NCBI RefSeq assembly: GCF_014692515.1 | Contig: NZ_JACOIK010000006.1 | Coordinates: forward strand, 1 to 64,000 | Direction of reading: 5' to 3' | Length of the DNA stretch: 64,000 nt | Origin: Sphingobacterium micropteri | GTDB lineage: Bacteria > Bacteroidota > Bacteroidia > Sphingobacteriales > Sphingobacteriaceae | Part shown: piece by piece, positions 39,828-62,711 of the stretch | Layout of the letters: each line of letters opens with the position of its first letter | Position numbering within the stretch: the stretch's first letter is position 1 | Notes under the pieces: model-generated | Seen by the model: the letters and a program-made list of their open reading frames with translations, nothing else | Databases searched by the model: none | Told to the model about the DNA's origin: nothing | Program-made: the position numbers and the translations under genes

Positions 39828-42368
39828 TTATTGAATTGTTCGCTGCCATATATCTTCAAAGGTATAAGCGTAATCTTCTCCCATCAAACGCCGATAGTTC
39901 TCCGCGAAACGCTTATAGAAAAGTGTTGCACGCGATTCGAGTTTTCCTTTATACAATGCGTAAAGCCCTTGTTCCAAGGCTAGCTCATTAACGGTGTCGA
40001 GCGTAAGTAAGGCGTCTGCTGCACGAAATAACGAAGACCAGTTTTTTTCCTCACGACTTTTGACTATATACTTTTGAAACCTTTCGATCAACATACTTTC
40101 GATATCGTATTTCGACTTATCGAAAATAGGATCGTCCATGCCCAATAGGAATTCCCCACGTTCCAGAATATGTAGAATCTCTGGAGAAAGGATATCGACA
40201 CCTTGCGTAAGAAGCTCCTTCAGGCGCCAATAATCACAATAGCAAATAGATTCGAATAGTACACGATAATGTCCCTCTTCATAAATAATTTCTATACCAT
40301 CCAATTCACTCAAGACCTTTCGTAGATTATTTATGGCTACCCCTCTAGAGGTCTTGGCCTTATCTTTCGGTTTGTCCGGCCATAGTAAGTGGGTAAGGAG
40401 ATTGGAACTGATGCCCGTATTGTAGCTATGGAACAGCACCAAACAGAAAACCTGTTGCAAGCGTGCGCTGAATAAATGGGAAATATCCATTCCTCGTCTA
40501 TCGACGACCGTGAAGTCTCCAAAAAGATAAATACAATTTGTCTGTGGTTGTTCGGGTAACGTTGGCTCATCGGGCAGCGGTACAGCAGATTCAGATTGCT
40601 TGGTACGACGAGAAATCTTGTATATTAAGGTTCCGATGCAGAGTACACTGAGTGCCAAAATGTAGAATCCTATGTTTTTTTGTGTACTAGGACCAGGAAA
40701 AGCATACAGTTGAGATTCACTGATAGCTGGAAAATCTAAACTGTATACGGTCAGCGTAGACCGGATATCATCGTCCGATTCCTGCACCAATGCGATCAGT
40801 TTCTTCAGATGAGGATCAAAATATAGATTCGCATGGGTACTAATCTTGTCGGAATAAATCGGAATGGAGTCACCCAATTCTTCATATTGGCCATCATGGA
40901 TGGCAAACCGGCGCAGTTTAATAAACGAGTGTGTTAAATGTTCGGGGTATCCGAGCATGTAAATCCAGTTGGAATCAGGGATGACTAAGCCGCGAGCTGG
41001 CACGAAAAGGTTTTCCTTCCGGTCTACGTCCCAGAGTTTTGTCGTTTTTCCGGTCGTCGGATCTAACATATAAAGGTCGTAGAAATATTTTCGTCCTACT
41101 ATATGCTGTCCAGACTCATTACCCATACCCCCAAAAATATAGATTTTTTGGTTCACCTCCGATCTACCTGCAGAGGTAAAATATCGAGGTAAAATAGAGT
41201 CTCCACGCATGTTCTCCGGTTTAGACCAATTTCCATCCGTTAAATTATAAAATAGCAAATCGTTACTATAAACCATGTTCCCGTATCCACCAAATAACAG
41301 TAGTTTGCGGCTATCGGTTAGAAAGTATGAAGCATGGTGGTTCAATTCTCGTTGTAGGTAGTCGTTGCTTTCGATTCTCCAGCTAAAATCATCTAAATCT
41401 AAGCTTACGACTGTGGGGCCAGTATAGGTTTCTTCATAGTAAGTTTCATAGACATACAGCCTATTTTCTTCGTGATCTATAAAACTGTTTCCGAGCTTAA
41501 GTTTCATCGGACAGGGGGTAAGGAAACGGATACTCCGTTTTACACCAGTTTGGATTTCGTAAATCTCTAAAGAATCTCGATTGAAGTAGCAGATAGATTT
41601 TCTTTTTGGATCATAGGTAGCTCCTGAAGGACTGGAGGAATGCATCACCGTGTGTTTATGCCAATGATAAGCATCGTTCAATAACCAAGTACCGTTTGTA
41701 ACCTTTCCCATCACTTCACCGGAAGCATTATGCAGTTTATTTCCCTCGCTTTCCCGTAGGGGGAAGACAATTTCCTTCTCTTTGTTCCCGATACGGAAAT
41801 TTCGAAGAGAGAATGAAGGGACATCAATCATGTAATCGCTACGTCCAAATGTGATGTTGGGAGAATATGGCGAATCGATTGGTACTGCGGCGGACTGTGG
41901 TGCCTCATTCGCAATCTGCAGCTTGATTTGCCCCTTCTGTAAATCATATTCCATACGTACCGGAAACCAATGCCTTTCAATTAGGTCTTCAAGCGGAATC
42001 CGCATCGTAATCAAGCTAGTTTTACCTTCTTCGTTTAGACGAAATACCGCTTGTCCTTCTTCTTTATCATAATGTAAATTGAAAATAGAACCCTGATTTT
42101 TCTCCTTAATCCGGACGATATAACCGATGGTATTATTATTAGGTAGCTGGAGATCAAAATTGATAGCAAACGCTTGGTGAAAAGTGGGTACTGCGTCCGA
42201 AAAGAAAGCTACAGAAGTACGTCCCTCAATAGGCTCATCACTCCCTGTAAACCGGATACCCTGTGCGAAAGCATAATTTGGAAAGATGAACGGCGTCATT
42301 AAAATGAAAAGACAAAGGAGGAGAGATTGTACTCGGTAAATGCACATGTTTCGGTTTATCACTGTCAT
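39828..42368 (-). CDS. Membrane-spanning Kelch/SARP one-component regulator (PUL-linked)
   Basis: 846 residues from the chosen start. Signal sequence (SLLLCLFILMTPFIFPNYAF), then a lectin-like beta-sandwich (about 30-215), then a Kelch/galactose-oxidase-type propeller (about 225-555; LLLFGGYGNMVYSNDLLFY, IYIFGGMGNESGQHIV, WIYMLGYPEHL). Then one TM helix (about 566-584, IGFYILALSVLCIGTLIYKI). The cytoplasmic part is a winged-helix SARP/OmpR-type DNA-binding domain (about 612-710; YLFGDFTVVDRRGMDISHLF, LTHLLWPDKPKDKAKTSRG) and a BTAD-like helical domain to the end. Such a chain could sense a ligand outside and bind DNA inside without a kinase. It is divergent from the mannan locus. ATG 42368 was chosen because TACCTTTG at 42400-42407 places transcription after an earlier ATG at 42422; 42347 is also possible. 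Confidence 0.8.
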   Translation of the reverse strand: MTVINRNMCIYRVQSLLLCLFILMTPFIFPNYAFAQGIRFTGSDEPIEGRTSVAFFSDAVPTFHQAFAINFDLQLPNNNTIGYIVRIKEKNQGSIFNLHYDKEEGQAVFRLNEEGKTSLITMRIPLEDLIERHWFPVRMEYDLQKGQIKLQIANEAPQSAAVPIDSPYSPNITFGRSDYMIDVPSFSLRNFRIGNKEKEIVFPLRESEGNKLHNASGEVMGKVTNGTWLLNDAYHWHKHTVMHSSSPSGATYDPKRKSICYFNRDSLEIYEIQTGVKRSIRFLTPCPMKLKLGNSFIDHEENRLYVYETYYEETYTGPTVVSLDLDDFSWRIESNDYLQRELNHHASYFLTDSRKLLLFGGYGNMVYSNDLLFYNLTDGNWSKPENMRGDSILPRYFTSAGRSEVNQKIYIFGGMGNESGQHIVGRKYFYDLYMLDPTTGKTTKLWDVDRKENLFVPARGLVIPDSNWIYMLGYPEHLTHSFIKLRRFAIHDGQYEELGDSIPIYSDKISTHANLYFDPHLKKLIALVQESDDDIRSTLTVYSLDFPAISESQLYAFPGPSTQKNIGFYILALSVLCIGTLIYKISRRTKQSESAVPLPDEPTLPEQPQTNCIYLFGDFTVVDRRGMDISHLFSARLQQVFCLVLFHSYNTGISSNLLTHLLWPDKPKDKAKTSRGVAINNLRKVLSELDGIEIIYEEGHYRVLFESICYCDYWRLKELLTQGVDILSPEILHILERGEFLLGMDDPIFDKSKYDIESMLIERFQKYIVKSREEKNWSSLFRAADALLTLDTVNELALEQGLYALYKGKLESRATLFYKRFAENYRRLMGEDYAYTFEDIWQRTIQ

Positions 42369-42399: not shown

Positions 42400-42407
42400 C
42401 AAAGGTA
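42400..42407 (-). promoter_or_regulatory. Promoter element of the Kelch/SARP gene
   Basis: On the minus strand TACCTTTG matches TAnnTTTG. Transcription would start near 42393, 25 bases before the ATG at 42368. This argues against the longest possible reading frame. Confidence 0.5.
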
Positions 42408-42495
42408 GCTAATATAATACAAAAAAATTAGTGAAACATAGAAGAAAAAGGGTCGTTAGAAAGCTTCTTGGAACATAAATGTGAAAAATAAAAGG

Positions 42496-42539
42496 GGGGT
42501 TAATGTTTTTGTCTGCGGTTAAATCTTGTTTTTAACCCC
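42496..42539. promoter_or_regulatory. Inverted-repeat operator candidate in the PUL promoter region
   Basis: A perfect inverted repeat GGTTAAA-N7-TTTAACC spans 42517-42537. It is nested in the wider repeat GGGGTTAA (42496-42503) / TTAACCCC (42532-42539), giving three GGTTAA half-sites within 44 bases, two of them in direct orientation 19 bases apart. It lies about 100 bases before the first PUL gene and about 90-130 bases from the divergent regulator's promoter element. It is a good candidate site for the Kelch/SARP protein or another activator. Confidence 0.5.
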
Positions 42540-42638
42540 AGTTTTAATCCTTGCCTCCCTATTTTGGGGTATGAAATATGTCGAAAGACTATTCCGCCAA
42601 TTTTAAATTTTTTATTATAAACTTAACTAATCTCAAAC

Positions 42639-44114
42639 ATGAAGTTTTCCATTATTGCCATGTGTTGTACGATGCTATTGAGCTTTACTTCGATAACTGT
42701 CGTACTATCAGGAGTTGCCAGGAGCCCGTCACCCCCTGATATGATGGGGGAGCCAGGTACGGATGATTCTCAGGTTATAGCTATGCAGAACCTACAACGT
42801 TCTATAGATTTAATCGATGTAACCATCGAGCATTATTTTGACCCCGAAACTTTCGAAATGCGACGCTTTTATAATCCGTTTACCAACGTTAAATCTGATG
42901 AACGTGCTTCTGTTTGGATGTATACCGCCGGAATTGAAGCTGTCAATGCGGTGCTATTGGCGCTTAAGCATGCCCAGCATGTCGAGGGGAGCACGTTGTA
43001 TAATGATCATTACGATCGCTACGTGATATTGCTGGACAATCTGTATACGAATGCAGACTATTATCTAGGCACTTTTGAACTCGTTTCTTATACACAGACA
43101 AAAGAATGGTCTGTATATGCTGTTGATCGTGTCAATCAAAAAGGGCAAGCAAACGTTTCTGGTATACTGAATGTATATGATGATCAGATGTGGTTAATCC
43201 GTGAGTTATTGGATTCCTATAAACTAACGGGTAAAAATGAATATTTGAAAAAAGCAGAGTATTTAACGGCTTATGTGTTAGATGGGTGGGACGTAACTCG
43301 TGATAGCAATGGGAAAGAAAATGGTGGAATCCCTTGGGGACCTGGCTACACCACGAAGCATGCCTGTAGTAATGGACCATTAATCAGTCCGCTGGTTTGG
43401 CTACATGAAATTTACAAAGACAAATCTGATAAGGTTGCGCATCGCTATATAGATACAGACGGAAAAACCCGCCGAAGTGAACAATTGGAAAAACGACAAT
43501 ACTATCTTGACTATGCACGATCTATTTACGAATGGCAGAAAAGAAACCTACTTAATGCAGATGGTGTATACACGGATATGATGGGTGGTTGCGTGCCAAA
43601 TTGTGATATACGTTACGAAGAGGTGGACGGTATACGATACCGTGCAAACACACCATTGACGCAAGCTGTAGGAAAAGCGTATACCTATAACAGCGGAACG
43701 ATGCTGTCGGGTGCTGTGGACCTTTATCGCGTAACGGGAGATGAAGAATATGCAACGGATGGCCGGGAGCTGGCTAAGAACAGTTTCCAGCAGTTTGCTT
43801 CTTTGGGAAAGGATGTCCCGCAATATTACAGCTTCGAAACGAATGGCTTTAACAATTGGTTTAATGGTATCCTCATGCGCAGTTACGAAGAAGCGAGTCG
43901 GCTTGATACGCAAATAGGAAGTTATCTAAAGGCCTTCCAACGAAACCTAGATTATGGTTTTGAGCGATTTCATCAAGATGGTTTCCTCCCGACAAATTTA
44001 TTGAAAGGATGGGGGAAAGAAAAGGAGAAGCAGGGCGTAGAGGGGATGTTCATGTTTACATTTGCTGCACAATACGCTATATTAGGAAAGCATCAGTTGG
44101 AGGATGGATTGTAA
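42639..44114 (+). CDS. GH76-family alpha-1,6-mannanase
   Basis: A 491-residue exported glycoside hydrolase of family GH76 (endo-alpha-1,6-mannanase). A signal peptide (about 1-28) is followed by an (alpha/alpha)6 toroid. The catalytic Asp-Asp pair is visible in NVYDDQMWLIREL (D181-D182), with family landmarks ASVWMYTAGIEAVNAVL, GIPWGPGYTTKHACSNGP, DMMGGCVPNCDIRY and TYNSGTMLSGAVDLYRVTGD. It would cut the alpha-1,6-mannan backbone of fungal or related mannans. It is the first gene of the locus and close in sequence to the second GH76 at 46012. Confidence 0.9.
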   Translation: MKFSIIAMCCTMLLSFTSITVVLSGVARSPSPPDMMGEPGTDDSQVIAMQNLQRSIDLIDVTIEHYFDPETFEMRRFYNPFTNVKSDERASVWMYTAGIEAVNAVLLALKHAQHVEGSTLYNDHYDRYVILLDNLYTNADYYLGTFELVSYTQTKEWSVYAVDRVNQKGQANVSGILNVYDDQMWLIRELLDSYKLTGKNEYLKKAEYLTAYVLDGWDVTRDSNGKENGGIPWGPGYTTKHACSNGPLISPLVWLHEIYKDKSDKVAHRYIDTDGKTRRSEQLEKRQYYLDYARSIYEWQKRNLLNADGVYTDMMGGCVPNCDIRYEEVDGIRYRANTPLTQAVGKAYTYNSGTMLSGAVDLYRVTGDEEYATDGRELAKNSFQQFASLGKDVPQYYSFETNGFNNWFNGILMRSYEEASRLDTQIGSYLKAFQRNLDYGFERFHQDGFLPTNLLKGWGKEKEKQGVEGMFMFTFAAQYAILGKHQLEDGL

Positions 44115-44169: not shown

Positions 44170-45993
44170 ATGAAAATTAATCAAATGAAAAACCTAAAAA
44201 AAGTATGCTATTTGGCATTGGCCACGCTGATGTTCATCTTACATTTCGGATGTAAAAAAGACCATGATCCTACGGATAACCGACGTGGACAAGTTGTTGG
44301 TACAGTAACCGATGCTAATGGAGAACCCATTTCAGGGATGAAAATTACCCTTTCGGGCATCAATGAAGAAGATCAGGTTACCACAAGTGGGAATGACGGG
44401 AAGTATTCTTTTGATAATGTGACCTACAGAACACATGCGGTCAAGTTTGAGAAAGATGGATGGCTGGCAGTTGGGTTAACGTTAACGGCGAATGATTTTG
44501 ATGACAATGGTGTCGCTACCGTGAATGTAGAAATGGTCAGTGCTTCCGCAAGAATTGTAGGAACGGTATTGGATGCACTCCAAGCAGGTGAGCCACTTTC
44601 AGGCGTTACTGTTTCTATTGGTGCGGTTGGCGGAACAGCAACTACCGATAACAATGGAGCTTTTGTGATTCCCAACCTGATTGAAAATAATTATAGTGTC
44701 ACTTTTACGAAAAGTGGATATGTCACGATTGTGAGAACGATATCGCCTGCTGATTTTGTGGATGGTATCGCTACCCTTAATATCCAAATGGGAAGTCAAG
44801 AATTGCTCCCCGGATTAACCACTATTGATTTGCAAAGTGCCGAAAAGTGGTATTATAACGAATACCGCGGAGGAAGGAATGCGGATGCCTATCCACATTG
44901 GGACTGGGCATGTAACTATATGAGTACCTTAGACTTCAGGGGTGCATGGCAAGAACAGAATGAAGGAACGACATTGCAGATCCGTAACAGCGGGGATGAT
45001 CGAAATAACCCGGCAGATATGGATGTTTTTGATTCGTTTGTGTATGGTAGTAAATTGATTACGGAAGACAACAAAATTCTTTCGCTGAGAGTTCAAACCC
45101 ACAATGCGGATGCCGCTGCACCGGTTTATTTCGGCGTACAGGTCATTGATTTAAATGCCGCCGAACCGAAAGCGGAGAAAGTAGGTCAAAACCGCACCTA
45201 TTCGGGAGGTTACACGGATTTTGATTTTGACCTGAGTGCTTATGTCGATAAGGAGGTAATCATTGCCATAGGAATATATAGGCAAGCGACCGGGGATTAT
45301 TGGAAACAACTCGTTTTGCGGGCGATCCGGTTTGCTGACAGAAAAGTCGAGAATTGGGACTGGCTTCCTGGAACCGAGGTTGTTGACGGATGGAAGCTCT
45401 CTCATGAAACCGTTCGGTCTACTATGCCACATACCAAAAAATCGTTTACCGGGATCAGTCCTGTAAGTGGTAACCGTGATAACTATGTGGATGCATATCG
45501 TGCTTGGCGGAATGTCGCTCACGTTGCCGCGGAATGGATGTTCATGCCGCTGAAAAAAGACCCCGAAGTATTTCCTTCGGAAGGGTATATCATTAAGACA
45601 CGAAATACACCAGAAGTAGACACGAAGGTACCCGAAGCGTATATGTATACCAAATTCTCTATCGCGGGAGGAAGTAACCGATTGACGCTCAGTACCCGTA
45701 ATTTCGGAAGTAACTTTACCTACTTTAAACTGACGGCGATTGACAACAACGGTGCGGTAACACATCTTTCACCCGCCTCTAATACAGCGCAAGAAGCGTC
45801 GGCTGCAAGTGATGGCTGTTGGAAATTCAAGCATGGCGACGGAGGAGCGGGTAATCCAGATGGATACGCTTTGTTTACCTATGACCTATCTTCATTCAAT
45901 GGTTCTGATGTCACGTTAGTGCTTGGTGTATATAATGGCGAGGCGAATACCGGAGAGAATAAATTGGTGCTGCACAATATTAAAATGGATTAA
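44170..45993 (+). CDS. Modular surface lipoprotein, candidate glycan-binding protein
   Basis: A 607-residue lipoprotein; the lipid Cys is C28 (LHFGCKKDHD), and the acidic/basic residues after it resemble a Bacteroidota surface-export signal. Two tandem CarboxypepD_reg-like Ig folds follow (about 40-125, VVGTVTDANGEPISGMKI; about 130-212, IVGTVLDALQAGEPLSGV). Then come two similar beta-sandwich modules (about 290-395, DFDFDLSAYVDKEVIIAIGI; about 500-607, FTYDLSSFNGSDVTLVLGVY) joined by a Trp-rich region. No catalytic motif is seen. Between two GH76 genes, it most likely binds mannan at the surface (inference). A start five codons later is possible. Confidence 0.7.
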   Translation: MKINQMKNLKKVCYLALATLMFILHFGCKKDHDPTDNRRGQVVGTVTDANGEPISGMKITLSGINEEDQVTTSGNDGKYSFDNVTYRTHAVKFEKDGWLAVGLTLTANDFDDNGVATVNVEMVSASARIVGTVLDALQAGEPLSGVTVSIGAVGGTATTDNNGAFVIPNLIENNYSVTFTKSGYVTIVRTISPADFVDGIATLNIQMGSQELLPGLTTIDLQSAEKWYYNEYRGGRNADAYPHWDWACNYMSTLDFRGAWQEQNEGTTLQIRNSGDDRNNPADMDVFDSFVYGSKLITEDNKILSLRVQTHNADAAAPVYFGVQVIDLNAAEPKAEKVGQNRTYSGGYTDFDFDLSAYVDKEVIIAIGIYRQATGDYWKQLVLRAIRFADRKVENWDWLPGTEVVDGWKLSHETVRSTMPHTKKSFTGISPVSGNRDNYVDAYRAWRNVAHVAAEWMFMPLKKDPEVFPSEGYIIKTRNTPEVDTKVPEAYMYTKFSIAGGSNRLTLSTRNFGSNFTYFKLTAIDNNGAVTHLSPASNTAQEASAASDGCWKFKHGDGGAGNPDGYALFTYDLSSFNGSDVTLVLGVYNGEANTGENKLVLHNIKMD

Positions 45994-46011: not shown

Positions 46012-47457
46012 ATGAAACTGAAAAAAAGTATAATTATCGCGGTTGGGAGTCTTCTATGCTTCTTTATCTATGCCTGTGATAAGGCCAATAGCGATGACAA
46101 GACAACACCGCCAGAAGAGAAGGATCTGGCGACGAGATCGCTGACCCGTGCTATGGAAATTACAGATAATGCGCTGGAAGCCTATTTTACGGGAAGCGGA
46201 ATGACCATGGCAAGATATTACAATCCCTATACCGATCAACGGTCGAATGAAATCGGAAGTATATGGATGTATACGAGTGCTATTGAGGCTGTTACGGCAA
46301 TTCTTCACGCCCTGGAGGCTGAAAAGGAGCAGGGAGACGCTGCACGCTATAATGCCCATTTCAATCGGTACGAACAAGAACTTATGAAGCTCTATGATGC
46401 AGCTGATTATTACTTGGGAACATTCACGCTTACCTCCTATACAGGTACCAACGAATGGACAGTATACGGTGTAAATCGTGGGAATTCTAAAGGTGGCGCT
46501 CGAGTAGAGGGGATTGAAAATGTTTATGATGATCAAATGTGGCTAATTCGAGAGTTTCTGGAAGCGTATAAAGTAACCGGCAACCAATTGTTTCTGGAGA
46601 AAGCGGAATACCTTACGGAGTATGTGCTCGATGGCTGGGACTGTACGTTTGATACGAACGGAAACGAGGTAGGGGGAATCGCCTGGGGACCTGGTTATGT
46701 GACCAAACATGCTTGTAGCAATGGCCCGATGATAAGTCCGCTAGTTTGGCTGCACGAACTCTATAAAGGGAAAAACGATGAGATAACACATCGCTATATC
46801 GATGCTGCCGATCGAAGAACTAGAAAGGCAATTCAAATGAAGAAAAGCGAATATTACCTCCTGTTTGCAGAGAAGATCTACGATTGGCAGAAACGCTCCC
46901 TTCTTCGAGGCGATGGTGTGTATGATGATATGATGGGGGGCTGCACGCCGGGATCTCCGCAGTTGGAGCAAATTGATGGTGTTAATTACCGCCGAGGTGT
47001 GAATTGTCGTGATAGAGTGGGGCCAGCTATAACCTACAATAGCGGCACGATGTTGTCGGGAGCAGCCGATCTCCACCGTGTTACCGGAGACGACAAATAT
47101 CGTGCGGATGGTGCGGCATTAGCAAACGCCAGCTTTTCTTACTTTGCAAAAAAAGGCGTGAATGTCGCAGATCATTACACCTTTGATATCAGTGGCTTTA
47201 GAAACTGGTTCAACGGCGTGCTGATGAGAGGGTATGTCGACTTGTATCCTTCGTACAAAGAGACGAATGAATATATCGATGCGTTTCAAAAAAATCTGGA
47301 TTACGCGTATGAGCGTTTTTTCTACAATGGGCTTCTACCTACAAACTTGTTAGTCGGATGGAACCGTGACCGTGGTAAAAACGATACAGAGGGGATGTTT
47401 ACCTTCGCCTTTGCAGCCGAATATGCGGTTTTGTCAAGATATGAATTAACAAAATAG
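46012..47457 (+). CDS. GH76-family alpha-1,6-mannanase (lipoprotein)
   Basis: A 481-residue GH76 with a lipoprotein signal (FIYACDK, C22), so probably on the cell surface. The catalytic pair is in NVYDDQMWLIREF (D173-D174). The same landmarks as the first GH76 are present: SIWMYTSAIEAVTAIL, GIAWGPGYVTKHACSNGP, DMMGGCTPGSP and TYNSGTMLSGAADLHRVTGD. A paralogue of the gene at 42639. The lipid anchor suggests it is the surface backbone-cutting enzyme and the other is soluble or periplasmic. Confidence 0.9.
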   Translation: MKLKKSIIIAVGSLLCFFIYACDKANSDDKTTPPEEKDLATRSLTRAMEITDNALEAYFTGSGMTMARYYNPYTDQRSNEIGSIWMYTSAIEAVTAILHALEAEKEQGDAARYNAHFNRYEQELMKLYDAADYYLGTFTLTSYTGTNEWTVYGVNRGNSKGGARVEGIENVYDDQMWLIREFLEAYKVTGNQLFLEKAEYLTEYVLDGWDCTFDTNGNEVGGIAWGPGYVTKHACSNGPMISPLVWLHELYKGKNDEITHRYIDAADRRTRKAIQMKKSEYYLLFAEKIYDWQKRSLLRGDGVYDDMMGGCTPGSPQLEQIDGVNYRRGVNCRDRVGPAITYNSGTMLSGAADLHRVTGDDKYRADGAALANASFSYFAKKGVNVADHYTFDISGFRNWFNGVLMRGYVDLYPSYKETNEYIDAFQKNLDYAYERFFYNGLLPTNLLVGWNRDRGKNDTEGMFTFAFAAEYAVLSRYELTK

Positions 47458-47486: not shown

Positions 47487-50400
47487 ATGATCAAGAATTT
47501 AATGATGGAAATGAGAATATTTATGCATACCATATGGTTTGCGTTTCTCCTGATTCCGGCGATGTCGTTTGCACAGCATATAAATGTGTCAGGGAGCGTA
47601 GCCAGCTCCGACGGCCAGCCGCTTATTGGCGTATCCGTATTAGTGAAGGGCTCATCACCCCAAATTGCTACTAGTACGGATGCCCAAGGACAATATACCA
47701 TTCAAGTGCCGCAAGGGGCGGTATTACACTATTCTTTTGTGGGCTTTTTAAGTGCAGAAGAAACAGTCGGCACGCGAAGCCGTATAGATGTTGTCTTACA
47801 AACAGATGAGGCCGCGTTGGAAGAGGTCGTTGTTGTCGGATACGGTACGCAGCGAAAAGTCACCTTAACAGGAGCTGTGTCGAATATCAAAGGGTCGGAA
47901 ATGATTAAAACTAAAAACGAAAACCCACAGAATATGCTCACCGGTCGTGTTCCGGGGGTAAGAGTTTGGCAGCGAAGCGCAGAACCAGGATCTTTCAATA
48001 ACAGTTTTGATATCCGAGGTTTAGGTAGTCCGTTGGTAGTTATCGATGGTATACCGCGAACGACAGCAGATTTTCAACGGCTTAATCCCAACGATATCGA
48101 AGATATATCGGTGCTGAAAGATGCCTCTGCTGCGATCTACGGGGTGCGAGCGGCTAATGGCGTAGTCCTTGTTACGACAAAAAAAGGAACGCGGACAGGG
48201 AAGGCGAGTGTCTCCCTGAGTAGTGCGTATACCTTTCAGCGACCGTCGGGATTGCCGGTATTGGCTGACCCCTATGAAACCATGACCATTTACAATGAAA
48301 TGGCACGGAACAATATCGGATCGCCTTATGATATTATTTATACGGAGGAGCGTTTTGAAGCTTTTCGAACAGGGGAGAGTCGTACGACAGACTGGACATC
48401 CCTGCTTTTTTCTGACTATGCGCCACAGACCCAGTCAGACTTGAGTATTACGGGGGGAAGTGATAAAACCCAATATTACATCGGAGTAGGCCACCTTTAT
48501 CAGGAAGGATTTTTCAAATCCGGAGATTTGAATTACAACAAAGTGAATCTTCGGTCGAATATCAGTGCGGAGATAGCTAACGGGCTCACCTTTGATCTAA
48601 ACTTAAGTGGAGTTATGGATCAGCGTAATAGCCCTTATTCCAGTTCCGTAGATATTATCCGGAATTATTGGCGGCAGGGGGTGCTCGTACCGGCGTATGC
48701 TGATCCAGGCAACACGATGCTTAATTACGAAGGACTGGATCTTGAGGAGAATACTGTAGCAAAGATGACATCCGATATTTCGGGTTATCGGAAGCATGCG
48801 CAGAGACATTTCCAATCTTCTGCCAGTTTGAATTATGATTTCGGTACGCTTACAGATGTACTCAAAGGTTTGTCGGCAAAGGCGTTGGTGAGTTACGATT
48901 ATCGTACGGATGATAACAATATCAATCGGAGAGAGTACTACCAATATGCTTATAACCAAGTGACCAACACGTATGATCCAAAACTGTATAACATCAGCTC
49001 GCCGAACCAGATACGAAGGGAAATGTTTAATAGACAACAAGTGTTGGGCCAGTTTATCGCGAATTACAACAGAACATTTAACAATACGCATCAGGTGACC
49101 GGTATGCTGGGATGGGAAGCGCAAAAACAAACCGGCGATAATTTTTATGCACAACGTAATCTCGCTTTTGCTATGGATTATCTCTTTGGTGGTGTCGCGC
49201 AGGATCAAGTGGGTGGAATGAGTAGCTCATTTGACGATATCTATGAGTTAACAAATTCCGCCGTTTTCGGAAGGGCCAATTATACCTTTGGTGATCGCTA
49301 TATTGCGGAAGCGCAATTCCGCTACGACGGGGGGTCAAAGTTTGTCCCTGGCCGCCGATGGGGTTTCTTTCCCTCAGGATCTGTGGGATGGCGTATATCG
49401 GAAGAGCCTTTCTTTAAGAATTGGGAACTGGCATCATTCGTAGATCAGTTGAAGCTGCGTGCAAGTTACGGTGTGCTGGGAGATGATGGATCCTTGGTAT
49501 ATGACTGGGCCATGGGTTATGAGTACCCAGCCACATCAGGAAATGCGGAAAACGGGTATTACAACCAATATGCTCCCGGATATATGTTTGGCAATGAGTT
49601 TATATATGGCGCCTCGCCGCTGGCGTTGCCTAATCAACTAAGCACCTGGTTTACGTCTCATACCTTAAACCTAGGTGTTGATTTTGAAGGATGGAACGGT
49701 CTTTTTGGCTTCGCCGTGGATTATTTCGAAAGATCCAGAAAAGGGCTTTTTGCCCGTCGCACGGGCGAACTTCCTACCGTGATCGGTGCTACCGCTCCCC
49801 GGGAAAATCTGGACAGCGATAAGCATTTCGGAATGGATGTCGAAATTTCGCATCGGAATAAAATTGGTGACCTATCTTACCGGGTGAAAGCCATTGGAAC
49901 AATTACGCGTCAAAAACGCCTTGTAGGCTCGGAGAAGGGACCATGGGGGAATTCCTATGACAGATGGCGTAACGACAACTTGAATAATCGTTTTCAAGGC
50001 ATGCAGTTTGGATATGAAGCTGCTGGGCGCTACACGGACTGGGACGATATCAGAAGTTTCCCGATATACAAAGGTCGCGACATCTTGCCGGGTGATTATA
50101 AATATGTCGATTGGAATGGTGATGGAGAGATCAACGGTTCAGATATGCATCCGCTCGCTTTTGATAGTACACCATGGCTAAATTTTAGTTTCAGTTTTGA
50201 TGCCAGCTACAAAAGATTTGATATGAGTTTCCTATTACAAGGCTCGGCGCTCGGCTCTATGCAGTATAGAGAACCGCTATATGCGATTTGGGGAAGCAAC
50301 GGTGGAGGAGTACTCGAACAATATACGGATCGATGGCGTCCTGTTGATCCATTGGCTGACCCTTGGGATCCTTCCCAGGAATGGATCAGCGGCTACTATG

Positions 50401-50666
50401 GATTCTCGGGTAACTATCCTTTGGAAGCCTCCACGTTTAACCGTGTGAGTACGACTTACCTGCGACTTAAAAGTGTTGAACTAGGGTATACCCTTCCGAA
50501 ACTCCGTGCACTGTCATCCATGAATTTGCGAGTCTTTGCAAATGCTTACAACATGTTGACATTCACGAAAGTTAAATTCGTTGACCCAGAGCATCCGGAA
50601 GATGATTTGGGACGACTCTATCCGTTGAACAAAACTATTACAGCGGGTCTTTCACTCGCCTTTTAA
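47487..50666 (+). CDS. SusC/RagA-family TonB-linked outer-membrane transporter
   Basis: A 1059-residue SusC homologue. A signal peptide ends AMSFAQ near 30, then a CarboxypepD_reg-like domain (about 33-115; VSGSVASSDGQPLIGVSVLV). The plug starts with the family hallmark EEVVVVGYGTQRKVTLTGAV and includes DIEDISVLKDASAAIYGVRAANGVVLVTT; the barrel runs to the C-terminus (ITAGLSLAF). It imports oligosaccharides captured by the SusD partner directly downstream (13 bases). Confidence 0.95.
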   Translation: MIKNLMMEMRIFMHTIWFAFLLIPAMSFAQHINVSGSVASSDGQPLIGVSVLVKGSSPQIATSTDAQGQYTIQVPQGAVLHYSFVGFLSAEETVGTRSRIDVVLQTDEAALEEVVVVGYGTQRKVTLTGAVSNIKGSEMIKTKNENPQNMLTGRVPGVRVWQRSAEPGSFNNSFDIRGLGSPLVVIDGIPRTTADFQRLNPNDIEDISVLKDASAAIYGVRAANGVVLVTTKKGTRTGKASVSLSSAYTFQRPSGLPVLADPYETMTIYNEMARNNIGSPYDIIYTEERFEAFRTGESRTTDWTSLLFSDYAPQTQSDLSITGGSDKTQYYIGVGHLYQEGFFKSGDLNYNKVNLRSNISAEIANGLTFDLNLSGVMDQRNSPYSSSVDIIRNYWRQGVLVPAYADPGNTMLNYEGLDLEENTVAKMTSDISGYRKHAQRHFQSSASLNYDFGTLTDVLKGLSAKALVSYDYRTDDNNINRREYYQYAYNQVTNTYDPKLYNISSPNQIRREMFNRQQVLGQFIANYNRTFNNTHQVTGMLGWEAQKQTGDNFYAQRNLAFAMDYLFGGVAQDQVGGMSSSFDDIYELTNSAVFGRANYTFGDRYIAEAQFRYDGGSKFVPGRRWGFFPSGSVGWRISEEPFFKNWELASFVDQLKLRASYGVLGDDGSLVYDWAMGYEYPATSGNAENGYYNQYAPGYMFGNEFIYGASPLALPNQLSTWFTSHTLNLGVDFEGWNGLFGFAVDYFERSRKGLFARRTGELPTVIGATAPRENLDSDKHFGMDVEISHRNKIGDLSYRVKAIGTITRQKRLVGSEKGPWGNSYDRWRNDNLNNRFQGMQFGYEAAGRYTDWDDIRSFPIYKGRDILPGDYKYVDWNGDGEINGSDMHPLAFDSTPWLNFSFSFDASYKRFDMSFLLQGSALGSMQYREPLYAIWGSNGGGVLEQYTDRWRPVDPLADPWDPSQEWISGYYGFSGNYPLEASTFNRVSTTYLRLKSVELGYTLPKLRALSSMNLRVFANAYNMLTFTKVKFVDPEHPEDDLGRLYPLNKTITAGLSLAF

Positions 50667-50709
50667 TCCCGTTTGTGTTATGGACTATATCAAGACAAAA
50701 AACAATCGT

Positions 50710-52770
50710 ATGAAAAAAATATATCAGTTGACACTGGCTATTTGTGTGTTATTCGCCTCGTGTTCAGATTTTTTCGATATCCCACCAAAGAACATTATTG
50801 GCGATGAAGATTTGCTTACCAGTGAATCGGGGATGGACGTTTACCTAGCAAGAATGTATAGTAATATGCCATTCGAAGATTTCAAGTACATGGCCCAATG
50901 GGGGGTGGAATTCAATGCATGGCTGGGAGCATTGGGAATTGAGGGGACGGGTGAGGCCCTGAATCGGGACGGGATCAGTTCGGCATTTACCAGTGAGCGA
51001 ACGCCGTATTGGGGGAAAGCTATGACCTTGCTGAGAGATGCGAATTATTTGATTGAAAATCTCCCGAAATACGAAGCTTCATTTCCGGAGAATATATATA
51101 ATCACTATCTCGGAGAGGCTTACTTTGTCCGAGCCATTGTATTTAATGCCATGGCCAGACGATTCGGCGGCGCACCATTGGTGACACAGGTTTTACACTA
51201 TCCTGCAGAGCTGTCAACGCTGGAGGTACCACGTGCCAGCGAGGAAGAGACATGGAATCAGGTGCTTGCCGATTTTGATCAGGCAGCGGAATTGCTATTG
51301 CCAGCCAGTCCGAAGAGAGGTTACGCCAATAAATATGTTGCCTTAGCATTTAAATCAGACGCCATGCTCTACGCAGGTAGTGTTGCAAAATATAATGAAA
51401 CGGTCCCCGGTCGTCTCACCGGATTGGGGGAGAAAACGGGCGTCCGGGTTATTGGCTTCGCCGAAAATGCATGGCAAGCGGCATCAAAGAAATATTTCAG
51501 AGAAGCCTATACAGCTGCTCGGGAGATCATGAATGATGGAAATTATGCGCTTTATAAAAAAAGATGGGCAGCAAATAATCCTGAAGCCCAATATCAGAAT
51601 ATGGTCGACATGTTCAGTGATGTGGAAAGTCCAGAAAACATTTACGTAAAGGAATACACTTTTCCTATTGCCACACATGGATATGATGCCTACAGTGCAC
51701 CTTTTATTTTTAAAGCACCACTAGCGTCAGGAACTTGTCCTACACTAGATTTTATGGAACTTTTCGAAGGATTTGACCGCTACCCAAATGGTACGATTAA
51801 GGTAACAACCGGAAATTCCAATACGCAGGGGGAATACCTGATGTATGACACACCTATGGATTTTTTCAAAGATGCTGAACCACGGTTGCGGGCGTACGTT
51901 ATTTTTCCCGGGGATCGATTTAAAGGCACGGATATTGAAATTCGGGCAGGTGTTTATACAGGCCCTACACCAATACAGCCGTTTTTTAATGATTATTCCT
52001 ATCAAGCGGCTGAAACAAGGTATCAGAACCTGAATGCTTACCGGGCAACTCCTAAAACACTCTACCTAAGCCCAAGAGAAGGCACCAGCCAAGAGTTGGT
52101 GAATTACAACGGAACACAAATGACGGCCGCTGGTGCGAACGGTCCGTTCTACGATAATGGAGAAGGGAACTTGACTGGTCTTTATGGTAGAAAATGGTTA
52201 AACACCGATCCATCCTTCGTCGCAGGTGAAGGGCGATCAGATCAGCACTTCGTGCTGATGCGTTACGCCGAAGTACTTTTGAATGCGGCGGAAGCTGCCG
52301 TTGAGTTATCGCTCGCAGGGGAGGGATCTCCTGACGGATCGGATCTGATGGAGGTGGCCACACAAGCGGTTAATGAGATCAGAGAGCGGGCTGGGGCGTC
52401 ACTGCTTACCAGTCCGATCACATCGACAGAAAGTGGCCGTAATATCGTACGAAAAGAGCGCCGGAAAGAGCTGGCATTAGAACATAAGTCTAAATGGGAT
52501 ATCCGAAGATGGAGGGTGCAGCATTATGAAGGAAGAAATGGCTTTTGGGGTGAAAACAGAAATAGGGATGCCTTTAGTAACAATACACGTTATCGCTTCC
52601 GCGGACTTTATCCTTTCTTTTCGACCAGTAGCGGGAAATATTTTTTCGATGCTAGGTTCCAGTGGGTGAGTTTGAAAACGTTTGAATACAATGTAATCGA
52701 CTATTATTTTGCTATTCCTGGAGGAGAAGTAGCAAAGAGTTCCGTCATAGATCAGCAGCCGAACAGGTAA
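50710..52770 (+). CDS. SusD/RagB-family outer-membrane lipoprotein
   Basis: A 686-residue SusD-like lipoprotein: lipobox LFASC (C16 from the chosen start), DFFDIPPKN, TPR-rich helical body (YNHYLGEAYFVRAIVFNAMARRFGG) and the C-terminal motif IVRKERRKELALEHKSKWDIRRW. It forms the lid over the SusC channel and binds the imported glycan. At about 690 residues it is longer than the usual 500-600. The ATG at 50710 was preferred because the signal peptide starts there; an ATG at 50680 adds a ten-residue charged leader. Confidence 0.93.
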   Translation: MKKIYQLTLAICVLFASCSDFFDIPPKNIIGDEDLLTSESGMDVYLARMYSNMPFEDFKYMAQWGVEFNAWLGALGIEGTGEALNRDGISSAFTSERTPYWGKAMTLLRDANYLIENLPKYEASFPENIYNHYLGEAYFVRAIVFNAMARRFGGAPLVTQVLHYPAELSTLEVPRASEEETWNQVLADFDQAAELLLPASPKRGYANKYVALAFKSDAMLYAGSVAKYNETVPGRLTGLGEKTGVRVIGFAENAWQAASKKYFREAYTAAREIMNDGNYALYKKRWAANNPEAQYQNMVDMFSDVESPENIYVKEYTFPIATHGYDAYSAPFIFKAPLASGTCPTLDFMELFEGFDRYPNGTIKVTTGNSNTQGEYLMYDTPMDFFKDAEPRLRAYVIFPGDRFKGTDIEIRAGVYTGPTPIQPFFNDYSYQAAETRYQNLNAYRATPKTLYLSPREGTSQELVNYNGTQMTAAGANGPFYDNGEGNLTGLYGRKWLNTDPSFVAGEGRSDQHFVLMRYAEVLLNAAEAAVELSLAGEGSPDGSDLMEVATQAVNEIRERAGASLLTSPITSTESGRNIVRKERRKELALEHKSKWDIRRWRVQHYEGRNGFWGENRNRDAFSNNTRYRFRGLYPFFSTSSGKYFFDARFQWVSLKTFEYNVIDYYFAIPGGEVAKSSVIDQQPNR

Positions 52771-52830: not shown

Positions 52831-53646
52831 ATGAAAAAGACAACCATTTTTATAGCGTTCGCGTCTCTTTTCTTTTTGGCTTCCTGTAGTATGTTTGAGC
52901 TGGATAATTATCCAGCTCCGGCCGAAACGCTACAAGGTGAAGTCGTTGATGTAGCTACCGGAGATCCGGTGCTGACCGACCAAGGAAGTGAAGGGATTCG
53001 GGTGCGTCTCATAGAAACCAGTTGGGGAGATAATGTTACGCCTAATCCTGACTTTTTCTGTATGCCCGACGGCACTTTCCAAAATACAAAAGTTTTTAAA
53101 GGAAGATATAACGTCCAGGTAGACGGTCCGTTCATTCCGTTGTTGCGGGAGGATGAGCGTGGTGTACCGATCGCTGATGAAACAAAGGACGTCGATATCG
53201 AGGGGGTAACGCAAGTTCGGTTTGAGGTACAGCCATTCCTGAAAGTCGAATGGATGGATGAGCCTAGGGTGATCAATGGCAAAATTCAAGCGAAAGTGCG
53301 CGTGACCAGAGGCGTTTCGGAAAGTGAATTCCGGGAAAAAATAGAACCCATGGGCGGATATAGTAGCAGCTTTCAAAATATAACCGATATACAGCTTTTT
53401 GTCAGCTATTCCTCTACGGTGGGCTATCGAGCACGGGATGAACGTTGGTCGAGTGTCCTTGAATACACAGGGTCATCATTTAATAGCCTGCTTGGAGAGA
53501 CAGTTACGATCGAGTCCAACGGAACGATACCGTCCGGACGTATCGTATTTATCCGTGCAGCTGCCCGTATCAATTACGATACACCTAAAGGTAGCGGAAC
53601 AAGACGCTGGAATTATACGGACGCGAAAGAGGTGTTGGTAAGATAA
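52831..53646 (+). CDS. DUF3823 lipoprotein (SusE-position glycan-binding candidate)
   Basis: A 271-residue lipoprotein (LASC, C19). Its DUF3823 N-terminal Ig-like domain is LDNYPAPAETLQGEVVDVATGDPVLTDQG..., followed by a second beta-sandwich (about 130-271; VEWMDEPRVINGKIQAKVRV). DUF3823 proteins usually follow SusD in mannan- and N-glycan-type PULs and are thought to bind glycan at the surface. No enzyme motif. 60 bases after susD. Confidence 0.85.
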   Translation: MKKTTIFIAFASLFFLASCSMFELDNYPAPAETLQGEVVDVATGDPVLTDQGSEGIRVRLIETSWGDNVTPNPDFFCMPDGTFQNTKVFKGRYNVQVDGPFIPLLREDERGVPIADETKDVDIEGVTQVRFEVQPFLKVEWMDEPRVINGKIQAKVRVTRGVSESEFREKIEPMGGYSSSFQNITDIQLFVSYSSTVGYRARDERWSSVLEYTGSSFNSLLGETVTIESNGTIPSGRIVFIRAAARINYDTPKGSGTRRWNYTDAKEVLVR

Positions 53647-53662: not shown

Positions 53663-55852
53663 ATGGTTATGACAAACTGGAGAATATATATCGGAGTTGC
53701 TGGTCTGATCGGGAGTAGCGGGGCAGTCATGGCGCAGCAAACGACCGATAACGTGAAGACAACTTTCCAGACCTCCCGAGAGTGGCGTCCGACAATTGAT
53801 AACCGTGCGGACGCGGTTATGATCTACGGCGTAGGCGGAAATCCTTCGGATAAACATAAAAGGTTACCGTTTAACGAGCGAGTCAAATCTTGGAAAGATA
53901 GGGGCTATACGATTCATTTCATGACGGGGATTGCCTGGGGCGAATACCAAGATTATTTCACCGGTCAGTGGGATGGAGAATGGCATCTGGACGAGGGGCA
54001 GGTCACCCGGCAGCAGGATACCATATGGCATGGCTATATGGTTCCTTATATTGTGCCGACGGACAACTTCCTTGCGTATTTGAAAGAAAAGCATGTGAAG
54101 CCTGTCATCGATGCGGGAATTGACGCCATATTTATGGAAGAACCGGAATTCTGGGCAAGGGCAGGCTATAGCGAATCGTTTAAGCGGGAATGGAAGAAGT
54201 ATTATGGCTTTGATTGGCGTCCACAACACGAATCTCCAGAGAATACCTATCTTTCTAATAAGCTCAAGTATCACCTCTATTATAACGCATTGAACGAGAT
54301 ATTTACTTTTGCCAAGGAATACGGCAAATCCAAAGGGATGGATGTGAAATGCTACGTTCCCACGCATTCACTCGTCAATTATGCCCAATGGATGATCGTT
54401 TCTCCGGAGGCTAGTTTGGCATCCTTACCGGTAGTGGATGGTTATATTGCACAAGTTTGGACGGGGACCTCACGAGAGCCCAACTATTTTAACGGAAAAG
54501 AAAGGGAACGGGTGTTCGAAACAGCGTATCTGGAATATGGATCTATGGAATCGATGACCGCACCTTCTGGCAGGAAAATGTTCTTTCTGACCGATCCTAT
54601 TGAAGACCGTGCCAAAGACTGGGTGGATTATAAAACCAACTACCAGGCAACTTTTGTTGCGCAATTGCTGTATCCGAACATTGCTGACTACGAGGTTATG
54701 CCTTGGCCAGAGCGAATTTATGAAGGGTTGTACCGGACAAATCCGAATAGTGATCAAAAAGAACGTATCCCGCGTCATTATTCCACGCAGATGCAGGTCA
54801 TGATCAATACATTGAACCAAATGCCACTAAGTGAAAATAAATTGTCGGGAAGCGAAGGGATCTCCGTGTTGATGGCAAATTCGTTGATGTTCCAACGTTT
54901 CCCAACGCACGAAGGATACGACGATCCACAGCTGGCGAACTTTTATGGTCTTGCTCTTCCTTTCCTAAAACGCGGTGTACCGGTAAAAACAGTACATATC
55001 GAGAATTTAGGGTACAAAGAAGCACTGAAGGACACCAAAGTTTTGCTCATGACCTATGCGAATATGAAACCGCTTGATCCGATTGCACACGAGCATTTGG
55101 CTGCATGGGTAAAAGCAGGGGGACAGTTGATCTATAGTGGGACCGACAATGATCCGTTCCAGACGGTACAGGAATGGTGGAATACGAAAAGTAATACTTA
55201 TGCGGTTCCAGCGGATCATCTTTTTGAAAAAATGGGTATTCTGCCGGGAGCAGACGGCGGCGTATATACATATGGTAGGGGATCTGTACAGATTATCCGG
55301 GTGGATCCAAAAGATTATACCCTTAAAACAAACAACAGCCAGCAACTAATTAAGGTAACACAAGAGCGATACCAAGCCGCTGGTGGCGACACGTTGGTCT
55401 TCAAAAATAACTTTTATTTGCAGCGCGGACCGTTTGAGTTGATTGCGGTGATGGATGAAAGTGTCAGTGAAGACGGCTATGCGATTAGTGGTACATTGAT
55501 CGATCTATTTGATCCTGAATTACCAGTGTCTAAAAAGCGCTATATTGCCCCGGGTGCACAAGGTTATTTTTTAAATGTGGATTTGATCCCCGACAAGCAA
55601 AAACCACAAGTCTTAGCTGCAGCCAGTCGTGTTTACGATGAAAAAATCACGAAATCCACTTATGCTTATATAGCGAAGAGTCCGATAGAAACAACCAATG
55701 CTTCTCGGGTACTTCTTCCAAAACGGCCGAAAAGTGTAAAAGTCAATGGAAAAGAGGTATTCAACACACGAAATTGGCACGAGGAGTCAAAGACTTATCT
55801 GTTGGGATTTGAAAACGACCCGGACGGTGTCGACGTAAAATTTGTATGGTAG
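53663..55852 (+). CDS. GH42-like glycoside hydrolase of unassigned family
   Basis: A 729-residue exported protein (signal peptide about 1-24, AVMAQ). The N-terminal part (about 45-400) reads as a TIM barrel: GYTIHFMTGIAWGEYQDYF, then DAIFMEEPEFWARAGYSESF with E159, E160 and E162 in the usual acid/base strand position. Residues about 430-545 look like a Rossmann-type beta-galactosidase trimerisation domain (VLLMTYANMKPLDPIAHEHLAAWVKAGGQLIYSG). The C-terminus is a beta-domain. This three-part order is that of GH42-related families, of which GH164 beta-mannosidase is one possible match I cannot confirm. Context suggests action on mannan side chains or core sugars. Confidence 0.6.
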   Translation: MVMTNWRIYIGVAGLIGSSGAVMAQQTTDNVKTTFQTSREWRPTIDNRADAVMIYGVGGNPSDKHKRLPFNERVKSWKDRGYTIHFMTGIAWGEYQDYFTGQWDGEWHLDEGQVTRQQDTIWHGYMVPYIVPTDNFLAYLKEKHVKPVIDAGIDAIFMEEPEFWARAGYSESFKREWKKYYGFDWRPQHESPENTYLSNKLKYHLYYNALNEIFTFAKEYGKSKGMDVKCYVPTHSLVNYAQWMIVSPEASLASLPVVDGYIAQVWTGTSREPNYFNGKERERVFETAYLEYGSMESMTAPSGRKMFFLTDPIEDRAKDWVDYKTNYQATFVAQLLYPNIADYEVMPWPERIYEGLYRTNPNSDQKERIPRHYSTQMQVMINTLNQMPLSENKLSGSEGISVLMANSLMFQRFPTHEGYDDPQLANFYGLALPFLKRGVPVKTVHIENLGYKEALKDTKVLLMTYANMKPLDPIAHEHLAAWVKAGGQLIYSGTDNDPFQTVQEWWNTKSNTYAVPADHLFEKMGILPGADGGVYTYGRGSVQIIRVDPKDYTLKTNNSQQLIKVTQERYQAAGGDTLVFKNNFYLQRGPFELIAVMDESVSEDGYAISGTLIDLFDPELPVSKKRYIAPGAQGYFLNVDLIPDKQKPQVLAAASRVYDEKITKSTYAYIAKSPIETTNASRVLLPKRPKSVKVNGKEVFNTRNWHEESKTYLLGFENDPDGVDVKFVW

Positions 55853-60769: not shown

Positions 60770-60866
60770 GACGATTTGATGCTATTTTGAATTAAAAGGT
60801 CAAGGTTTTGTTTTCTTTATATTGCATTTTTGGAATATAAACCGGGAAATCAAAATAGAAACAATA

Positions 60867-62711
60867 ATGAAGCGATTTTTTGCATTAGCATGTTTAGTCA
60901 CGACGAGCTGGTTCGCCGCACAAGCGCAGGATTGGAAACCAGCAGGGGACAAAATTTTAACCACCTGGGGTGAACACCTGGATCCAGCGAATCCGCATCC
61001 GGAATACCCCAGACCACAGTTGGAACGTAAGGACAATTGGAAAAATTTAAATGGATTATGGAAGTATACCATTGTAGACAAATCCGTTTCCGAAAAACCA
61101 ACATCTTGGGAGGGGGATATATTGGTACCCTTTGCAATTGAATCCGCCTTATCTGGTGTAGGAAAGGAAGTTGGAAAAGACAAAGCCTTATGGTACAGCC
61201 GAACGATATCCGTACCCAAGGCTTTTCGGAAAGGGCGTGCCTTGTTACATTTTGGTGCGGTAGACTGGCAATGTGATGTATATGTAAATGGACAGCATAT
61301 CGGTCAACACGAAGGGGGGTTCGATCCCTTCTCTTTTGATATCACAGACGCGTTAAAAAAAGGTGTGGATCAAGAAATTGTGGTACGCGTATGGGATCCG
61401 ACAAGCGAAGGACCACAGCCTCGTGGAAAACAGATCAATAATCCACATGGGATATGGTACACCCCTGTAACGGGGATATGGCAAACTGTCTGGTTGGAAA
61501 ATGTGCCCGAAAGTTATATTGTAAATACAAAACATACCCCTGATGTAGACCAATCGTTACTACATTTTGCTGCTGAAGTAGAAGGAGCAAAAGTAGGAGA
61601 TGAGTTGCTGGTGGAGATTTATGATGGCGCGCAGAAGATTGGCGAACAACAACTCGCTTTAAACCAAGAATCGGCTTTATCCGTGAACAATCTGACTTTA
61701 TGGAGTCCTACAAATCCGAAGCTTTATGACCTGCAAATCAAATTACTACGTGGTAAAAAGGTTATCGATCAGGTGAAAAGCTATTTCGCTATGCGAAAAA
61801 TAAGCATGAAGAAGGGGAGCGATGGTGTTCAGCGTATGTATTTGAATGATGAGTTTGTGTTCCATTATGGACCCTTAGATCAAGGTTGGTGGCCAGATGG
61901 CTTACATACACCTCCAAGTGATGAGGCCTTGAAGTTTGACGTTGTCAAAACGAAAGAGATGGGCTTTAACATGATCCGTAAACATATCAAAGTCGAACCT
62001 GCCCGCTGGTACCGTCATTGTGATAGCCTTGGTATTTTGGTTTGGCAAGATATGCCGAGTGGTGATCTTGGTGGAAATATCTGGGATATGCAGCCCGGTA
62101 AAATTTCCAATGGTATTCATGATAAGGATCGCACACCTGAATCCGAAGCGATCTATAAAAAAGAATGGAAGGCGATCATGGATGCATTACATAACTTTCC
62201 GAGTATTGTGATTTGGGTACCTTTCAATGAAGCATGGGGACAGTTCAAAACGAAAGAAATTACGGAATGGACGATGAACTATGATCCATCCCGTTTGGTG
62301 AATAGCGCCAGTGGGGGGAATTTCGCCTTTATCGGACATATTTTGGACATCCATAACTATCCAGGTGCTGCCATGCCCGATCCGAATCTTTTTGGCGACA
62401 AATTCATACTGGCGTTGGGCGAGTTTGGCGGGTTAGGGTTACCGGTAGAAGGTCATACTTGGCAGGAGAAAGACAACTGGGGTTATCAATCGTTTAAAAA
62501 TAAAGAAGAGCTTACCAAGCGTTATCAGGAATTGGTGACAGATCTGAATGAGCTAATTAAGCGCGGATTATCTGCCGGCGTCTATACGCAGACAACGGAT
62601 GTAGAAGTGGAAACAAATGGTTTGATGACGTACGATAGAAAAATTATTAAAATTCCAGAAGCAGAGCTTAAGAAAATGCATGAAGTGTTATATAATCATG
62701 TAGTTGAATAA
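60867..62711 (+). CDS. GH2-family glycoside hydrolase
   Basis: A 614-residue exported GH2 (signal peptide MKRFFALACLVTTSWFAAQAQ). Sugar-binding jelly roll (about 20-190), Ig-like domain (about 195-285) and TIM barrel (about 290-614). The acid/base Glu is in SIVIWVPFNEAWGQF and the nucleophile Glu in FILALGEFGGLGLPVEG. GH2 covers beta-galactosidases, beta-mannosidases and beta-glucuronidases. In this mannan-type locus beta-mannosidase or beta-galactosidase are both possible. The ATG at 60867 was taken over an upstream in-frame ATG because the signal peptide starts there. Confidence 0.9.
   Translation: MKRFFALACLVTTSWFAAQAQDWKPAGDKILTTWGEHLDPANPHPEYPRPQLERKDNWKNLNGLWKYTIVDKSVSEKPTSWEGDILVPFAIESALSGVGKEVGKDKALWYSRTISVPKAFRKGRALLHFGAVDWQCDVYVNGQHIGQHEGGFDPFSFDITDALKKGVDQEIVVRVWDPTSEGPQPRGKQINNPHGIWYTPVTGIWQTVWLENVPESYIVNTKHTPDVDQSLLHFAAEVEGAKVGDELLVEIYDGAQKIGEQQLALNQESALSVNNLTLWSPTNPKLYDLQIKLLRGKKVIDQVKSYFAMRKISMKKGSDGVQRMYLNDEFVFHYGPLDQGWWPDGLHTPPSDEALKFDVVKTKEMGFNMIRKHIKVEPARWYRHCDSLGILVWQDMPSGDLGGNIWDMQPGKISNGIHDKDRTPESEAIYKKEWKAIMDALHNFPSIVIWVPFNEAWGQFKTKEITEWTMNYDPSRLVNSASGGNFAFIGHILDIHNYPGAAMPDPNLFGDKFILALGEFGGLGLPVEGHTWQEKDNWGYQSFKNKEELTKRYQELVTDLNELIKRGLSAGVYTQTTDVEVETNGLMTYDRKIIKIPEAELKKMHEVLYNHVVE

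Follow-up and report, generated by a model that had tools for sequence, protein, structure and literature searches.

In Sphingobacterium micropteri, a mannan PUL faces an oppositely oriented gene whose product appears to join a periplasmic sensor to a DNA-binding domain within one polypeptide; the question is whether, and by what route, this protein controls the PUL. Regulation of PULs is usually split among HTCS, ECF/anti-sigma, and SusR-type systems, and the SARP fold is known from the control of antibiotics in actinobacteria. A preliminary description, made from sequence alone, had proposed that the protein combines a lectin-like domain, a Kelch propeller, one transmembrane (TM) helix, and a SARP output, and that it may govern the glycan locus next to it from across the membrane and without a kinase. 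The stretch analyzed here, called the window, comprises 64,000 nucleotides (NZ_JACOIK010000006.1, positions 1 to 64,000). The gene and the parts of its product are as follows.

39828-42368, minus strand: Kelch-TM-SARP regulator gene, 846 aa, start ATG at 42368, stop at 39828-39830
42400-42407, minus strand (that of the kelch gene): -7-like promoter box of the regulator gene, TACCTTTG, conserved in orthologues
42264-42368, minus strand: signal peptide, residues about 1-35, with a cleavage site between AFA and QG read from the sequence
41763-42257, minus strand: periplasmic β-sandwich, residues about 38-202, from the model; lectin-like by topology only
40734-41684, minus strand: Kelch β-propeller, residues about 229-545, from Pfam and the model fold
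40599-40682, minus strand: single TM helix, residues about 563-590, ending in KISRR (positive inside)
39831-40553, minus strand: cytoplasmic SARP module, residues 606-846, made up of an OmpR-type winged helix (606-705) and a BTAD helical domain (712-845)

An alternative in-frame start, TTG at 42422, would give a protein of 864 aa; the ATG at 42368 is favored because the conserved TACCTTTG box lies between the two. The regulator is present as a single copy in the window's genome. Homologues occur in 42 of 201 genomes of the same family, nearly all of them full length and with the same layout, and among the GTDB genomes scanned, 211 stretches code for a relative; the architecture is thus not a product of chance, and the open reading frame and layout first reported at this position are confirmed.

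A full-length AlphaFold model, built from an alignment of 62 homologues (pLDDT 89), places in order a signal peptide helix, the β-sandwich (38-202), the propeller (229-545), the TM helix (563-590), a flexible joint, the winged helix, and the helical domain. An N-terminal signal peptide and one TM segment (~563-590) are common to nearly all homologues, in agreement with the single TM helix first proposed, and the QG at the mature N terminus is conserved. A flexible linker of about 15 to 20 residues, with low pLDDT at 591-600, separates the TM helix from the SARP module. Kelch repeats were called by Pfam above the cut-off in the regulator (E = 9e-17) and in all 47 of 47 homologues, and the propeller of the full-length model aligned with the Kelch domain of LZTR1 (Z = 22.8) and with bacterial YjhT/NanM (2uvk; Z = 19.2), so this element of the preliminary description also stands. 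Neither Pfam nor the model placed a histidine kinase or receiver domain in the regulator; the TM helix leads straight into the SARP module. The N-terminal domain is designated here only as a β-sandwich because no sequence family was significant for it when its profile was searched against the PDB and Pfam; Laminin_G_3 was called in 1 of 47 homologues, at 5e-4. Of the earlier term "lectin-like", the model bears out only the β-sandwich; judged from the modeled topology, a lectin nature of this domain is plausible.

The C-terminal 241 residues were also modeled alone with AlphaFold (pLDDT 96). A Foldseek search of the PDB returned only AfsR (8hvr, 8k60) and EmbR (2fez, 2ff4) at E < 1e-3, and VIA-align matched the whole module to AfsR and EmbR over about 230 residues with Z scores of 13.0 to 14.8, among them 14.8 and 13.1, at an identity of only 18 to 19%. 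Winged helices of membrane-tethered proteins aligned less well (TcpP, Z = 8.3; CadC, Z = 7.3). On the window protein alone, Pfam and NCBIfam gave neither BTAD nor Trans_reg_C and so missed the SARP part; the C termini of homologues gave weak Pfam matches to BTAD (24 of 62) and Trans_reg_C (12 of 62). The DNA contacts of AfsR include Q48, W74, R94, and K95 (PMC10936776). Q639, W663, R683, and K684 of the regulator are invariant or nearly so among homologues, and the spacing from W663 to R683 is 20, as in AfsR; the four are candidate counterparts of the AfsR contacts. In the model, the C terminus is clearly a SARP module, a winged helix followed directly by a BTAD domain, as had been predicted. 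A PF03704 search of the organism's own genome had a sole match, a TPR protein (C34), which was set aside as unrelated.

The preliminary description had placed the regulator gene divergent from a PUL. The PUL is present on the opposite strand, spanning 42639-62711, and galT and galK lie on the regulator gene's other side. It contains the following genes.

42639-44114, plus strand: GH76, the first PUL gene (Pfam)
44170-45993, plus strand: secreted protein with CarboxypepD_reg-like repeats (Pfam)
46012-47457, plus strand: second GH76 (Pfam)
47487-50666, plus strand: SusC-type TonB receptor
50680-52770, plus strand: SusD (Pfam)
52831-53646, plus strand: DUF3823 protein (Pfam)
53663-55852, plus strand: conserved PUL protein of unknown family, 729 aa
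55973-58270, plus strand: GH92 α-mannosidase family (Pfam)
58295-60769, plus strand: DUF4964/DUF5127/GtaA hairpin protein, DUF4965 type (Pfam)
60822-62711, plus strand: GH2 (Pfam)

GH76, GH92, and GH125 act on α-mannosides, the last being an additional gene in several neighboring loci, and yeast-type α-mannan is for this reason the likely substrate of the PUL. The "mannans" named at the outset are accordingly narrowed: the GH76 and GH92 content supports α-mannan, not mannan in general. The 729-aa protein (53663-55852, plus strand) had no sequence match in Pfam, NCBIfam, or the PDB; 63 homologues were found in the loci examined, and it is present in most mannan PULs of the same type, making it a candidate for a new glycan-binding or enzyme family.

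Other regulator types were sought around the PUL. No sigma70/FecR-type genes (ECF/anti-sigma) occur in the window's PUL, and sigma and FecR genes each account for 3 of 72 flanking genes in 33 homologue loci. A split HTCS was observed at the far end, consisting of a response regulator-AraC gene (62790-63569, minus strand) and, encoded apart from it, a sensor kinase that carries Reg_prop-like propellers (L163:3576-6680). The response regulator was set aside as a candidate regulator of the mannan PUL: its partner is this kinase, whose gene faces a neighboring PUL of arabinan type.

We then surveyed the family and its neighborhoods. By record titles, the best 80 of the 211 relatives are all from Bacteroidota, and their genera include Sphingobacterium, Dysgonomonas, Bacteroides, Prevotella, Alistipes, Algoriphagus, Echinicola, Chryseolinea, Draconibacterium, Maribellus, and Chitinophaga, among others. 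A thin phylum-wide sample had a homologue in 11 of 395 genomes, so the family is widespread but not common; a scan of viral contigs found no relative. The immediate neighbor is a PUL gene in 69 of 79 homologue loci, from many genera, and GH76 or GH92 lies within the locus in 70 of the 79; for background, SusD genes in the genus number about 33 to 83 per genome, roughly one per 70 kb. Regulator and PUL are divergent in 49 loci, co-directional in 6, and convergent at the 3' end of the PUL in 14. The linkage thus outlasts changes in gene order and orientation, which favors function over mere shared descent. Among the flanking genes of the homologue loci, no other regulator recurred beside mannan PULs. 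The check suggested for the original proposal, a link between homologues and glycan loci, hence came out in its favor, and this survey supports its core claim, that the neighboring locus is under a regulator that spans the membrane and has no kinase. A distant subfamily, at about 25% identity, is near SusCD in 11 of 24 cases, a looser association than in the main family. One homologue in a congener (G178:C1:58089-59763) matches only as separate pieces of the periplasmic part and may be a decayed gene.

Alignment of the intergenic DNA of close orthologues revealed one block far more conserved than its flanks, and it lies within the region that had been singled out at the start (42423-42638). 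Distant relatives gave the form of the site: TTAACCC, 4 bp, TTAACCC, 5 bp, TTAAYC, with heptamers in steps of 11 to 12 bp. Its elements in the window are listed here.

42497-42550, plus strand: predicted operator, heptamers in 12-bp steps, with GGGTTAATG at 42497-42505
42520-42526, plus strand: first operator repeat, TAAATCT, degenerate, overlapping GGTTAAA at 42517-42523
42532-42538, plus strand: second operator repeat, TTAACCC
42544-42550, plus strand: third operator repeat, TTAATCC
42560-42566, plus strand: -7-like promoter box of the PUL, TATTTTG, 9 bp after the last repeat

Sites were scored against three TTAACCC units (maximum, 21). Of the 80 loci, 51 reached a score of at least 17/21; almost all of these sites lie immediately ahead of the first PUL gene and point towards it. 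Markov-shuffled DNA gave 2 matches at this threshold in 4.6 Mb. In a clade whose proteins are about 30% identical, 11 of 12 loci scored 18 to 21. TTTG or TTG follows 12 to 13 bp past the last repeat in most loci, and the last repeat ends 8 to 9 bp before the -7-like box. In published SARP operators, direct repeats recur every 11 or 22 bp, with the final repeat 8 bp from the -10 element, and SARP protomers sit on them side by side while also holding sigma region 4 (PMC10936776); the main operator of PimR consists of three heptamers with 4-bp spacers (PMC5930380). Judged by sequence, the predicted operator fits this layout closely. The same geometry bears on the sign of regulation. Because the operator extends into the stretch expected to hold a -33 element, the regulator might be imagined as repressing the PUL and coming off the DNA once ligand binds; SARPs are activators, however, and the 8 to 9 bp between last repeat and -7 box compare with the published 8 bp for SARP activators, so that repression strikes us as highly improbable. 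Activation is the direction of control that membership in the SARP family suggests.

The operator was next examined outside the loci from which it was derived, using the double heptamer TTAACCC-N4/5-TTAAYC. The first set comprised 14 genomes, mostly Cytophagales, in most of which the regulator sits at the distal end of the PUL, so that the PUL start had not been seen when the pattern was built; 12 of the 14 carried the double heptamer, 44 to 158 bp before the following SusC-labeled gene. It was found between regulator and PUL in 16 of 16 regulator-bearing genomes of the same genus or family. Among congeners without the regulator, taken irrespective of whether they carry a mannan PUL, it stood beside the PUL in 0 of 16; their matches were scattered, none of them beside GH76. 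In the window's genome the double heptamer is unique outside coding open reading frames, the other two matches lying inside such frames. From these three tests we conclude that the operator is dedicated and is not a general promoter feature.

The half-site itself is less restricted. In four congeners (L204, L224, L230, and L223; site near 1500), a histidine kinase gene and an outer-membrane-protein gene flank TTAACC repeats that follow one another in 11-bp steps, presumably an OmpR-type operator similar to that of the SARP. TTAACC is therefore not exclusive to the regulator, and assignment of the operator to the Kelch-SARP protein rests on covariation and layout. The repeats in these congeners, and the use of direct repeats about 11 bp apart by winged-helix response regulators as well, would fit a different reading, in which the operator is bound by some soluble response regulator of the OmpR type whose gene lies elsewhere, and the Kelch-SARP protein either modulates that regulator or has a different target. 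We regard this as very unlikely: no response regulator recurs among the genes flanking these PULs, the nearby response regulator/kinase pair of the window faces the arabinan-type PUL, and the site follows the presence of the Kelch-SARP gene (16/16 against 0/16).

In the distant subfamily (~25% identity) the TTAACCC triple is absent. A de novo search for heptamers in 11-bp steps gave a TTAATGC-type site there (11 matches against about 2.4 expected), which is suggestive only. The heptamer triples in 11-bp steps seen in intergenic regions of this subfamily (L060:13757, L064, L061, and L067) are of the TTAATGC type or, in L061, a perfect CCTTAAA triple. These sequences hint at diverged operator specificity.

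Taken with the linkage and the covariation, the anatomy of the protein makes it very probable, in our judgment, that it is a one-component activator tethered to the inner membrane and dedicated to the adjacent α-mannan PUL, sensing a mannan-derived signal and acting through the TTAACCC operator. From the architecture and covariation of the operator we infer that the SARP domains bind it. In the periplasm, the β-sandwich and Kelch propeller would respond to a signal that is presumably mannan derived. The signal would cross the single TM helix, probably via a changed dimer state or spacing. Paired SARP domains would then occupy the adjacent heptamers at 42520-42550, side by side on one face of the DNA, a short way ahead of the -7 box; the bound SARP would recruit RNA polymerase as AfsR does.

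Two steps in this scheme could run differently. The rest of the mechanism would be unchanged if the periplasmic part bound a PUL protein, by way of a SusC extension or the state of the transporter, rather than a glycan, which we consider a possible but doubtful variant. YjhT/NanM, the bacterial Kelch protein with a similar propeller, acts on a sugar, and some homologue loci contain GH76 or GH92 with no SusC nearby; on the other hand, the closest Kelch folds (LZTR1 and KLHDC2) bind peptides or proteins. The second step is the action of the SARP part. SusR, ToxR, and CadC function from the membrane, and the same would hold for this regulator; that its SARP part becomes active only after release by regulated intramembrane proteolysis is unlikely, no recurrent protease gene having been seen in homologue neighborhoods, although the flexible linker between TM helix and SARP would suit it. 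The literature offers some support to either variant, in that PUL anti-sigma factors sense SusC-like porins (PMC3878776) and the contacts of the SARP dimer with RNA polymerase are extensive (PMC10936776). The reading we prefer remains that of a glycan-responsive activator working from the membrane.

Compared with known systems, the regulator resembles several in part. Like ToxR, TcpP, and CadC, it has a membrane-tethered OmpR-type winged helix; their DNA-binding domain is N-terminal, whereas here it is C-terminal, and they possess neither BTAD nor Kelch domains. The winged helix of ToxR and CadC stands at the N terminus, and the analogy to ToxR drawn in the preliminary description thus fails on topology, the order here being signal peptide, periplasmic part, TM helix, and SARP. 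With HTCS it shares a large periplasmic sensor (often with propellers in HTCS), a TM segment, a cytoplasmic DNA-binding output at the C terminus, and a neighboring PUL, but it lacks kinase, receiver, and AraC HTH. Like AfsR, EmbR, and PimR, it combines a winged helix with BTAD and is associated with tandem heptamers in 11-bp steps near a -10 or -7 box; unlike them, its SARP is C-terminal and tethered through a TM helix to a periplasmic sensor, in Bacteroidota, at a glycan locus rather than antibiotic genes. SusR has been described as a membrane protein that senses in the periplasm and binds DNA through a cytoplasmic domain (PMC3878776), and kinase-free membrane sensing, earlier put forward as novel, is therefore not new. 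The likeness to SusR, a kinase-free membrane protein controlling a PUL, is one of working principle only, the sensor here being Kelch/β-sandwich and the output SARP. Since each part and the working principle were already known, the regulator is not categorically new. A search of the open-access literature for Kelch, SARP, or BTAD proteins tied to SusD or PULs returned nothing relevant, and two homologues in annotated plasmid records are labeled "hypothetical" or "LamG-like". In the literature searched, four things appear to be undescribed: the joining of Kelch, TM, and SARP in one protein, the use of SARPs to regulate PULs, the pairing of this protein with one PUL type across the phylum, and the predicted operator.

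A protein on a Parabacteroides distasonis plasmid (NZ_OY725768.1; L191:4252-6930) has the same TM-SARP end with a different periplasmic part, including LamG at 413-562, and is adjoined by Gfo/Idh and sugar isomerase genes. We read this, from its sequence, as a likely exchange of sensors on a common output module.

The regulator adds a one-component class to PUL regulation, with a defined predicted operator, and homologues reach Bacteroides, Dysgonomonas, Prevotella, and Alistipes. Because this SARP is anchored in the membrane and shares its chain with a Kelch sensor in the periplasm, the passage of a signal into a SARP may be studied in a single polypeptide, and the exactly defined operator renders the hypothesis directly testable. 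On balance we favor the broader view that membrane-tethered SARPs form a phylum-wide class, "Kelch-TM-SARP" with at least one relative bearing a different sensor, that serves as the standard switch of one type of α-mannan PUL through tandem TTAACCC operators, with heptamer specificity changed between subfamilies. If that change of specificity is real, target operators could be read from sequence.
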